DNA of 64,000 bases from Lota lota (lineage: Eukaryota; Chordata; Actinopteri; Gadiformes; Lotidae). The position numbers and the translations under genes are program-made. How positions within the stretch are numbered: the first letter of the stretch is position 1; each line of letters opens with the position of its first letter. The notes beneath the pieces are model-generated. The model was not told the DNA's origin and ran no database searches. It worked only from the letters and a program-made list of their open reading frames with translations. Below are positions 34,810 through 39,075 of this stretch, piece after piece. Location of the stretch: the NCBI GenBank assembly GCA_026745465.1, contig JACYXH010000335.1:62001-126000 (forward strand), read 5' to 3'.

Positions 34810-35400
34810 CTACAACTTACACAGAGACACTGAGGCACCACCCCATAACCTGAACGCAGGGAGGAGGTCCTCCTGGGTGAAGGTGGACTGGAAGGTGTGG
34901 ATGTGTGTCAGTGTGTCTGAGGACCCTACTACATCTGGGGACACTCTGTAGAAGGACAGAGTGCCAGCAGGCCGGTCCAGATACACTCCTACTCTGTTAG
35001 AGCCAGCGGGGGGGAGACGTTTGGCTGTTTCTCTACGGTTGTACCGGACAAGGTAAAAGCCATCATGACAATAAAGACTCCAGGACTTGTTGTTCCATCC
35101 AAGGCTGCTGTCATCACCCTCTCCTCTCCTTGTGATTCCTCTGTATGTCACTCCTATCTCAACACCTCCTTCCCACTCTACCTCCCAGTAACAGCGGCCA
35201 GTCAGACCCTCTCTACACAACACCTGGTCCCAGTAGTCAAATCTCTCTGGGTGATCAGGATACGACTGCTCCTCTCTAACCCGCGTCACCTTTCTGTTGT
35301 CCTCAGACAGAGAGAGACGTATGTTGGCTGTGTTTGGGTCCAGTGTGAGTTCACAGGCATCTGATGGGAGAACAAGACATGATTAGCTGCTGAACCATTC

Positions 35401-35431
<31 letters not shown>

Positions 35432-38400
35432 CTAGTACTGTTCTCTTGCATACTTCTTATTTCAGTCCTTTTTCAGGTGCCATCTACTCTACAAACTAAC
35501 ATAGAAATGCATGATAATACTACAGTGGAATAGTGTGCTATGAGTTTTAGATTAAAGTTAATAGCTAATCTCATGTGTGTGTGAGTGGCTGTCCCCATCA
35601 AAACATTGAAACCAAGGAAAATGTATAAACTGCATTTACTCCCTCAATAATTACACTACATAGACATATTATACATTGACATGCTCAGCATGCTGAGCTA
35701 ATTACTCATTTGAAATAGCTAAGCAATACTTGTAATATCATTCAAGATATTAAACCTTTGGATTTCCCAATCCACATACATTGCACTCAACCTTCAAAAG
35801 GACACCTGTGTGAACAACAGACTGAACAAGCTGAGCTCACATACAGGCTGGAAATTAACTGTTGGAGCCACAGAACTGGTTCATACATACTATATATACA
35901 TAGACATGTACTCATACATACACGTACATACTATATATACATAGACATGTACTCATACATACTATATATACGTAGACATGTACTCATACATACACGTACA
36001 TACTATATATACATAGACATGTACTCATACATACACTTACATACTATATATACATAGACATGTACTTATACATACACATACATACTATATATACATAGAC
36101 ATGTATTCATACATACACATACATACTATATATACATAGACATGTTCGCATACATACACATACATACTATATATACATAGACATGTACTCATACATACAC
36201 ATACATACTATATATACATAGACATGTACTCTTACATGCACGTACATAATATATATACACATATGTACACATACATACGTATGTATATGTATACATATAC
36301 ATATGTATACATATACATACGTATACATATACATATGTATACATATACATACGTATACATAGGTACACATACATACGTATACATAGGTACACATACATAC
36401 GTATACATAGGTACACATACATACGTATACATAGGTACACACACACTGTGGTAACCCGGCTCCAGCACATCGCCCCAGGCGGCCCAGGGGCCACCGCTCT
36501 GCCCCAGCAGGGGCCCACATTAGCGCTGGCCCCGTTGCGCTGAAACACCTGGAGGAGGAGGAGGAACGCCAGCAGACACGGGACTCGGAGTGAGTTGTGT
36601 CAAGAGGCTTTTGCAAAACGTGAGTGTGTGTTGCTGAAGAGAGGACGCACCCCGACGATCACGGAACAAGCCTTTGAAGGATGTGTACGCTGCTTGAGGA
36701 CGTTTCCCCCCTGCGCTAGACGGGAGCTGCCCTGGGGGGATCGACTACTGGCTGTCTAGCCCCCCCTACGTTGGGTTGGATTAACTCCTCAGAGACGGAG
36801 TGAAGCTTCACCACCGAGTGACTTTTGTGTTTATGTTGCGTACCACCGGAGGAGACCGGTGTACGGGAACTTTACCGGAGGTTTCTCCGTGGAGGCGGAG
36901 CCTAAACCTTTTTCTTTGTTCTGTTTGGCAGAGCCCAGGGCTTGTTACGTTTCTGTTTAGAAAATTACCACTTAGGCTTAAAGAGACCTTTGACTTGTGG
37001 AAGGCAGGCCACACGTGGAGCTGGGTTACCACAATACATCAACAACAATGTTATGAATATATCAACAACAATGTTATGAATATATCAACAACAATGTTAT
37101 GAATATATCAACAACAATGTTATGAATATATCAACAAAAATGTTATGAATACATCAACAACAATGTTATAAATATATCAACAACAATGTTATGAATATAT
37201 CAACAACAATGTTATGAATACATCAACAACAATGTTATGAATACATTAACAACAATGTTATGAATACATCAACAACAATGTTATGAATACATCAACAACA
37301 ATGTTATGAATACATCAACAACAATGTTATGAATATATCAACAACAATGTTATGAATACATCATCAACAATGTTATGAATACATCAACAACAATGTTCTG
37401 AATACATCAACAACAACGTTATAAATATATCAACAACAATGTTATGAATACATCAACAACAATGTTATGAATATATCAACAACATTGTTATGAATACATA
37501 AAGAACAAACATCTCTCATTGGATCCAGATCTTACCAACAACAAGCAGCTCTGCGGTGTGATTGGCCGAGCCAGCGCTGTTGGTCGCCATGCAGCAGACC
37601 GTGTTCACACCATACTTCACACCTCTGACGAAGAGGAACCCCATCTCCACCCAGGCCGCAGGCTTTGATTGGCTGTCTGTGCTGTCCCTCTCCAGGGGCC
37701 TGCCGTTGTGTAGCCACTCGACGGTGGGCTCCGGCGTGCCGCCGGCATCGCAGGAGAATTGGGCCGTGTGGCCCACGGGCAAAGCCTTGGTAGAGGAGTA
37801 GAACTCTGTGATGCTGGGGGCCTCCTCCCTCATGAGCATCACTGAACCAGAAGAAACCAGGACGAGATGAGTGATAACCAGAGCTTATAATCACTACTGT
37901 TATTATTGTAATTATATTCAGGATGATATGATTTAGACTCACTGAGCCACATTATGAGAATACTCAGCAGTATGACGATCAGAATGACACTGATGACCGA
38001 CTTTCGACCTGTTCAGGAGTAAGACACACACACACACACACACACACACATGCACACACGCATTGTAATATACACAGATATATTCGTACTCCATGGCTAT
38101 CATTCACAGTCTCCCTACGGTCTGCAGAATCCCTCCCCATCTACAAGAAACATCTGATGACCTCTAATGAGAACACCTCAAAAACTGATTAATGGTACTA
38201 GCCTTGCATATTTATTATTCCTGTATTATACACATACACACTTATAGAGTAATACATACAGTAATATATACAGTAATACATACATACATACACGTACAGT
38301 AATACAGTAACATATACAGTCAAACATCCCCGGCACGCACAGAAAATATTATATATCTAATTATATTTAAAGATATGTTCATATTAATTACAAACATTAT

Positions 38401-39075
38401 GTAATTGTGTTAAATCCATAAGTCCACTTGATATCACTTCAGTTATATCAGTAGCCTTTATTAAAAGACAAAAATGTGGATTAAAAAAACATTGCACTAC
38501 CACTAATAATAAGTAATGAAAATACTAAACTTGTGTTCTGCTCCCTAAAGCTACTTTGCTACTCTTGTTCCACGTATATTACGAACATATTTCATGACAT
38601 ACACAACTACTTGAGAAGCCTAGTAATAGTCCGTAACTCATGGCCGTAATCACTAGAACATACACATGTTGTTATTTAGGAGAATAAATCTGTCTATGTG
38701 TGTTGTTTGTCTAGAACATACACATGTTGTTATTTAGGAGAGTAAATCTGTCTGTGTGTGTTGTTTGTCTAGAACATACACATGTTGTTATTTAGGAGAA
38801 TAAATCTGTCTATGCGGTCGCTGGTTCATCAGGTTGGTCACTTTGGCTAAAAACGTTTGCTAAATGTAAATCTTAAATGTATGGAGATGAAAACATCTTT
38901 CTTTACTGGATTATTTCTTTTAAATTCTCTAAAAAGGGCACCTACCAAATCTTGTCTTCCAGGTCTCCTCCTGGTCGAAAGACGTGTCCTCAGGTTCCTC
39001 AGTGGGTCCAGGGTCCAAAGACGTGTCCTCAGGTTCCTCAGTGAGTCCAAGGTCCAGTTCAGAGATGAGGTCCAT
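34810..39075 (-). CDS. Membrane-anchored Ig-B30.2 protein, four coding exons, 350 residues
   Basis: The exons are 39075-38946, 38008-37943, 37841-37536 and 35360-34810. They join through phase-1 introns with GT-AG ends (donors gtaggt, gtgagt, gtaaga; acceptors aacag, ttcag, atcag). The total is 1053 nt, a whole number of codons ending in a stop. Residues 1-43 are acidic with a repeated TEEPEDTS. Residues 44-65 read GRKSVISVILIVILLSILIM, a single membrane helix preceded by RK, so the N-terminus is probably cytosolic. Residues 66-167 are an I-set Ig domain (Cys 96, Trp 108, Cys 149, then MATNSAG). Residues 168-350 are PRY-SPRY ([28 protein letters not shown]). An in-frame TGA precedes the ATG. 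No signal peptide is seen. The B30.2 exon, its upstream intron and 3' UTR match those of the NLR gene on the other strand. An NLR-type leader lies upstream at 40.4 kb. The ligand is unknown. It resembles a rearranged butyrophilin-like receptor (Ig, membrane helix, B30.2) in a different order. Confidence 0.72.
35885..36440. repeat. tatatacatagacatgtactc minisatellite
   Basis: Intron 3 of the minus-strand gene. Units combine actatatatacatagacatg, tactcatacatacacgtac and variants, changing to catacgtatacataggtaca at the right end. The reverse complement fills the NLR gene's last intron at 57665-58490, so both B30.2 exons carry the same intronic repeat. Confidence 0.92.
36447..37033. mobile_element. 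587-bp element with 17-bp terminal inverted repeats
   Basis: It starts tgtggtaacccggctcc and ends ggagctgggttaccaca, inverted repeats with one mismatch, and has TG...CA ends. Internal sequence is GC-rich on the left, with no coding frame recognised. It could be a solo LTR or a short non-autonomous DNA element. No target-site duplication is clear because both flanks are repeats. Confidence 0.55.
37034..37505. repeat. 23-bp minisatellite, about 20 copies
   Basis: Unit atcaacaacaatgttatgaa plus tac or tat. It fills the intron right up to the Ig exon's donor. Confidence 0.95.
38645..38815. repeat. 58-bp repeat, 3 copies
   Basis: Unit tctagaacatacacatgttg, ttatttaggagaataaatct, gtctatgtgtgttgtttg. 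Lies in the first coding intron of the minus-strand gene. Confidence 0.9.

Follow-up and report, generated by a model that had tools for sequence, protein, structure and literature searches.

What kind of gene occupies positions 34810–39075, on the minus strand, of the stretch of Lota lota DNA analysed here, where a membrane helix is predicted to precede an immunoglobulin (Ig) domain and a B30.2 domain? The stretch, called the window below, comprises 64 000 nucleotides (positions 62001–126000 of contig JACYXH010000335.1, our C335) of a genome assembly of 575 Mb in 867 contigs, and the initial annotation had read the gene as a chimera built inside the frame of an NLR gene, an interpretation that is partly supported by our results. 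Our preferred reading, which we consider reasonably probable, places the gene among the short-form members of a large multigene family in fish, whose products are likely to be surface receptors with a diversified extracellular B30.2 domain.

The predicted product of 350 residues is encoded by four exons, joined at three junctions that are each in phase 1 and flanked by GT-AG on the minus strand. Exon 1 (130 nt, 39075–38946, ending in phase 1) carries the start codon and an acidic tail with two TEEPEDTS repeats; the ATG stands in the context ACCATGG, with an in-frame stop codon just 5′ of it. Exon 2 (66 nt, 38008–37943, phase 1-1) encodes a single transmembrane (TM) helix, GRKSVISVILIVILLSILIMWL, which has the highest hydrophobicity of all 19-residue segments of the model (mean 3.15). 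After a short second intron of 101 bp (37842–37942), exon 3 (306 nt, 37841–37536, phase 1-1) encodes one I-set Ig domain with the N-glycosylation sequon NHT, and exon 4 (551 nt, 35360–34810) encodes a PRY-SPRY (B30.2) domain and the stop codon. A Pfam search of the 350-residue model recovered I-set (5.7e-10), PRY (3.7e-22) and SPRY (1.3e-12), bearing out the domain order originally proposed, namely acidic tail, helix, I-set Ig and PRY-SPRY. The six splice sites lie at the 94th–98th percentile of all GT and AG dinucleotides in the window when scored with a simple matrix of human consensus frequencies, compared with the 80th–99th percentile for five splice sites taken from the window's NLR gene and scored with the identical matrix. 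The claim of four phase-1 exons with good splice sites and 350 residues was therefore upheld, and the TM-Ig-B30.2 gene is confirmed as a predicted model. A sequence search of the PDB with the Ig domain identified it as a generic I-set domain only (top matches Roundabout 1 and titin); no relative of the Ig exon or the B30.2 exon was found in the viral contigs searched, and an Rfam scan gave no match reaching gathering scores.

The exons were searched against the whole assembly, the best 150 candidates per query being scored (150 of 415 for the Ig exon, of 234 for the tail exon and of 2430 for the B30.2 exon). The Ig exon has at least 150 matches, 89–100% identical, of which 149 lack a stop codon, and the tail exon has at least 161. 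Of the 148 tail exons used, 78 are followed on their own strand by a listed Ig exon no more than 8 kb away (26 at 0.9–1.6 kb and 52 at 2.1–5.2 kb); the other arrangements were found never (downstream antisense, upstream on the same strand) or twice (upstream antisense), and a script located the TM exon at 33 of 41 tail loci, of which some overlap. As in the window, homologous tail, TM and Ig exons are thus ordered on one strand, and on this evidence the window gene appears as a member of a large multigene family rather than a one-off chimera. Some copies may be allelic duplicates, for example those with near-identical spacings on C336/C337 and C282/C283, and the copy numbers are those of the assembly, not of the haploid genome. 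Two Ig exons were seen at some family loci. Very long open frames (about 1700–1900 residues) around some lectin and Ig exons were set aside; the one that was read is a run of N.

The frame of this family became clear from a long member, L084, in which the order is tail, TM, three C-type lectin exons (PF00059, 1.2e-23), Ig and B30.2. The window gene matches L084 on either side of the lectin part, and approximately 2.6 kb is absent from it at the position of intron 2. The last lectin exon has 136 genome matches (from a full scoring of its 149 candidates), of which 135 reach at least 80% identity and a few are partial, and the first has about 130 at 75% or more (counted by eye, best 150 of 357 candidates scored); a listed Ig exon follows the last lectin exon downstream on the same strand in 83 of 135 cases, lies upstream on the same strand in two, and was never downstream antisense. 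Among the 148 tails, 43 are followed by a lectin exon and then Ig, 35 by Ig, no lectin exon being listed in between, 29 by a lectin exon with no listed Ig, and 41 by neither. The lectin-less junction of the window gene occurs in at least 40 places, the window's own among them (40 scored out of 298 candidates; each match spans 104 or more of 119 bases). The short members, in which the TM exon reads straight into Ig and then B30.2, are therefore a genuine subgroup, and probably originated in one deletion. Like a type II C-type lectin receptor, the window gene has a short N-terminal tail and a single helix close to that end, and it has no C-terminal C-type lectin domain (CTLD); judged from sequence, tail and TM give the family the frame of such a receptor, and the window gene would be a CTLD-less member. 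The notion of a chimera built inside an NLR frame is consequently not borne out, the frame being that of a lectin-receptor family with more than 100 copies in the assembly. More distant lectin exons, at 52–77% identity, were seen on C409 and C690.

The last lectin exon ends in a stop codon in 17 of 18 copies, and a weak phase-1 donor, AGG/GTCCGT, precedes this stop. The combination suggests that long members may use the lectin part and Ig-B30.2 as alternative ends. The same donor could, on another account, splice CTLD, Ig and B30.2 into a single polypeptide, in which case the short members would be deletion derivatives with a shortened ectodomain. Although the donor is in phase and identical in all 18 copies, it is weak, the whole region is conserved, so that little can be read into its invariance, and a stop follows in all copies except one. 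In addition, AATAAA or ATTAAA lies between the CTLD stop and Ig at all 18 loci, though such motifs were also frequent in shuffled sequence (29–88 of 100 shuffles per locus). We give the single-polypeptide account only a small chance of being right.

The NLR-related part of the gene was delimited by comparison with the window's separate FISNA-NACHT-LRR-B30.2 gene on the plus strand (50390–59483, start limit by eye; B30.2 exon 58936–59483). Positions 36433–34215 on the minus strand, comprising the last intron, the B30.2 exon and the 3′ flank, align piecewise at 75–87% with 57957–60214 of the NLR gene, including a 41-bp satellite (35882–36335) common to both last introns and an AATAAA in the 3′ flank (34268–34273), present in the NLR copy as well (by eye). 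The earlier statement that the B30.2 exon, the repeat in its intron and the 3′ end are NLR-related thus stands, whereas the NLR-type leader claimed with it does not: the tail exon significantly matches only itself in the window, and the family to which it belongs shows no tie to NACHT exons. No significant second match in the window was obtained for the tail, TM and Ig exons, NACHT and LRR queries matched only the plus-strand NLR gene there, and of 68 FISNA places used (from the best 150 of 404 candidates) none has a listed Ig exon within 8 kb. The window gene accordingly lacks the FISNA-NACHT and LRR exons of an NLR-B30.2 gene and possesses its C-terminal B30.2 exon with intron and 3′ end, and these last three are the only parts that it has in common with NLR genes. 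A candidate NLR-type 5′ flank at 40145–40554, which resembles 48695–49144, was rejected; we take it to be a dispersed repeat, because it is similar to several places in the window (also 6600–7016 and 44607–44973), all at 74–76%. B30.2 is very numerous genome-wide, with 2430 first-look candidates, and FISNA has 404, the best 150 of each being scored.

A gene of this composition raises the possibility that the membrane-Ig gene and the B30.2 exon are mere neighbours, the protein ending after Ig and the B30.2 exon being a leftover NLR 3′ end. Read on past its donor, the Ig exon gives GKIWIQ and then a stop, and intron 3 is 2.2 kb long and consists mainly of repeats, both as this explanation would have it. 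However, B30.2 lies downstream of Ig on the same strand at 14 of 30 Ig loci, 10 times within 1.5 kb (at L024 in fragments only) and further away in the window and at C744:161019, C335:299559 and C744:224009; of the remainder, three were read to approximately 3.5 kb with no B30.2 exon, which again fits mere neighbours, and 13 were read to 1.5 kb only. By coordinates, 18 of the 150 listed Ig exons have one of the best 150 of 2430 B30.2 exons downstream on the same strand, compared with five downstream antisense and none upstream. The Ig donor is kept in 26 of 26 copies and the B30.2 acceptor is in the matching phase, reading tcag/ATG at all 27 exon starts displayed, Ig-linked or not (L024, L075 and L089 outside the set). 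Moreover, the B30.2 exon differs from the NLR copy by 7.5%, with one 3-nt gap and an intact frame, against 16–17% and 30 gaps in the intron and flank, both repeat-rich. The pattern of selection on Ig and B30.2, described below, also speaks against mere neighbours, which we regard as unlikely while deserving some weight, and we infer that the Ig exon is spliced to the B30.2 exon. At L087, on C799, a myosin-tail-like open frame adjoins the last intron of a family member (by eye), and at L052, L053, L061, L065 and L066 the tail exon is preceded on its own strand, at approximately 0.75–1 kb, by the first 55–57 residues of a B30.2 exon, which may be a neighbouring gene or a fragment.

The structure is present a second time, complete, on contig C744, where tail, TM, Ig, an inverted-repeat element of intron 3 and the B30.2 exon were all found. 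This element (36447–37033 in the window) has a length of 587 bp and 18-bp terminal inverted repeats, and is 98.6% identical in the sibling. The tail and TM exons are 100% and the Ig exon 98% identical to those of the window, the 5′ 2.85 kb (39300–36447) as a whole 99.3%, the satellite region (36445–35882) 88% and the last 450 bases of the intron 97–100%; the B30.2 exon, at 91.5% (85% in mid-exon), is more divergent than this adjoining intron, as would be expected from B30.2 conversion or strong selection, and the 3′ flank is 86% identical. An assembly error could in principle have fused the 3′ end of an NLR gene with a different gene: the junction falls within repeats, and poor assembly of NLR copies is documented in the part of PMC5894186 consulted. 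Because the sibling repeats the whole structure, and the identical order recurs on many contigs, misassembly is very unlikely, to the point of being almost negligible.

The ratio of nonsynonymous to synonymous substitution (dN/dS) distinguishes the two domains. The Ig exon is under purifying selection, all 26 copies compared being intact, each with an AG acceptor and a GGTAAG donor, at a dN/dS of 0.44. For the B30.2 exon the value is 2.08 (10 copies); the copies used were few and were the best matches to the window gene, and all such values describe recent relatives. Between the window's two B30.2 exons, whose proteins are 84% identical, dN/dS is 1.9–2.6 by three methods, with dN peaking in codons 60–110. 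When 16 B30.2 exons, some of which are identical, were aligned, variable positions fell into clusters at 13–15, 43–45, 66–68, 81–89, 99–113 and 167–176, with single positions at 27, 52 and 182. In a quick tree of low support, Ig-linked B30.2 exons and others, at least one of them NLR-linked, are intermixed.

Which side of the membrane these domains would face depends on the helix. The tail ends in WKTRFGRK before the helix in the window gene and in RKRRF in most tails shown, and the C-minus-N charge difference, −2 for the window helix and −4 and −3 for two other types, favours an N-inside orientation. The CTLD of long members and the Ig sequon also point to N-inside topology, and the lectin-receptor frame supports placing B30.2 outside. 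The initial guess of a common outer location for Ig and B30.2 thus gains support from charge differences of −2 to −4, and we propose an outward-facing B30.2 with a putative role in recognition. In NLR and TRIM proteins of vertebrate immunity B30.2 is known as a cytosolic sensor, and in butyrophilins as a cytosolic tail. This would suit the reversed topology, with the tail outside, Ig and B30.2 in the cytosol and B30.2 acting as in NLR or TRIM proteins; the B30.2 cysteines, which are like those of the NLR copy, and the charge difference of only −2 at the window helix are also compatible with it. The basic residues that end the tails, the charge differences of all three types, the presence at this position in long members of a CTLD, a domain that usually lies outside, and the sequon and three cysteines common to all 38 Ig rows (of which some come from overlapping loci) speak against this orientation, which we consider quite unlikely. 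As for the tail itself, PTEEPE is kept in many family members; the suggestion that it binds TRAF6 carries little weight, as 27.7% of shuffled tails contain such a motif.

Several observations weigh against the reading of the family as surface receptors with a diversified extracellular B30.2. The high dN/dS of B30.2 is not unique, the tail reaching 2.33 (22 copies) and the lectin exons also exceeding 1 (1.70 for the last, 14 copies; 1.58 for the second, seven copies). The cysteine and sequon pattern of B30.2 is not special in comparison with the NLR copy (alignment, by eye), and the charge bias at the window helix is modest. The lectin-exon stop and weak donor make a CTLD-Ig-B30.2 fusion doubtful in long members. 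Furthermore, B30.2 was found at seven of the 10 short-form loci among the 30, the other three, on C151, C799 and C59, lacking it within approximately 3.5 kb of Ig, and only one of four loci read further downstream had it. In C151, C799 and C59 the last intron of the family continues, in two of them almost to the position of the acceptor, and then gives way to other sequence, which we read as insertions; B30.2 may lie beyond them.

If our preferred reading is correct, the product would be a type II membrane protein with its tail inside and the helix as signal anchor, displaying its Ig and B30.2 domains at the cell surface or in a lumen. Ig would serve as a conserved spacer or partner domain, and B30.2 as a variable recognition face, diversified by positive selection and also by exchange or conversion with other B30.2 exons, those of NLR genes included. 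Of these steps, the one with least support is that clustering by ligand would signal through the acidic tail or a partner. The phase-1 TM exon of long members has two possible splice partners, the lectin exons, with their own stop, and Ig-B30.2, so that one membrane stem could carry either of two recognition ends. We suggest, tentatively and as something rather less probable than not, that the family represents a new class of germline-diversified surface receptor, with more than 100 copies, one tail-TM stem, a lectin or an Ig-B30.2 end chosen by alternative splicing, and an extracellular B30.2 refreshed by conversion from the NLR pool, in a fish seemingly without MHC class II. Inside and outside sensors would then use one common library of recognition domains. 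A large family with an outside B30.2 on a lectin-receptor stem, common with the NLR repertoire, would, if true, be a new diversification of surface recognition, and would allow a direct test of whether exon exchange moves recognition modules between the cytosolic and the surface receptors of a genome. The setting is a fish group reported as having lost MHC class II (gadiforms, in the part of PMC5894186 consulted); in the present genome, MHC class I exons are numerous (100 matches), and no MHC class II beta candidate was found, but the query family also failed in controls, so that absence is unproven.

Intron 3 contains, besides the inverted-repeat element, a 23-bp minisatellite of 20.7 copies (37033–37508). 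This intron was scanned for phase 1-1 exons whose two splice sites both rank above the 90th percentile, a filter that would miss exons with weaker sites, and four overlapping candidates were obtained at 36549–36731. They lie inside the inverted-repeat element and are probably not real, and because none is hydrophobic, none restores the butyrophilin order that an additional exon might have produced, an outcome that the initial annotation had named as fatal to its model. Elsewhere in the window, a 35-bp tandem repeat (39529–39981, 13 copies, 97%) lies approximately 450 bases 5′ of the start codon; an intron of the NLR gene contains an inverted-repeat element (55312–56150, limits by eye) with a short open reading frame that matches a Brinker-type DNA-binding domain (PF09607, 3.8e-08); and minus-strand open reading frames at 15046–20063, which match GIY-YIG (1.4e-05) and, weakly, reverse transcriptase (0.002, short of the cut-off), presumably belong to a Penelope-like retroelement.

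Among known systems, type II C-type lectin receptors have the layout of the CD209-like and NK-receptor-like frames. The present family resembles them in its short N-terminal tail, single helix and CTLD spread over three exons (in the long member read), and differs in the Ig and B30.2 exons that follow the CTLD and in having short members with no CTLD. Butyrophilins consist of a signal peptide, IgV and IgC domains, a helix and a cytosolic B30.2. Like them, the window gene would encode a membrane protein with Ig and a C-terminal B30.2; in contrast, its helix comes first, so that Ig and B30.2 would share one side, its only Ig is an I-set rather than IgV and IgC, and its exon 1 is acidic rather than hydrophobic, with no signal peptide. 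The best PDB sequence matches to the window B30.2 are stonustoxin chains (1.3e-38). Vespryn/ohanin and stonustoxin are venom proteins that have neither a membrane anchor nor Ig. Vespryn, which is B30.2-like, has a signal peptide, as stated in the portion of PMC5384570 seen, and the likeness to these proteins is that a B30.2-like domain can work outside cells. A search of titles and abstract openings, in which subscription journals were sparse, for C-type lectin with B30.2/SPRY or for type II membrane B30.2 found no such architecture among the papers listed, which is weak evidence of novelty. Closer in its B30.2 is finTRIM, whose B30.2 is common to NLR genes by exon shuffling and shows positive selection in its loops; the sharing with NLR genes is the same, whereas the finTRIM proteins are RING/B-box proteins, with no membrane helix or Ig in the part of their description available to us (PMC2657112). 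With the fish NLR-B30.2 proteins, in whose genes conversion and positive selection in B30.2, with dN/dS above 1, are reported in the sections of PMC4852459 consulted, the window gene has in common a homologous B30.2 exon, last intron and 3′ end and a B30.2 dN/dS above 1, the helix and Ig, together with the CTLD in long members, taking the place of the FISNA, NACHT and LRR exons.

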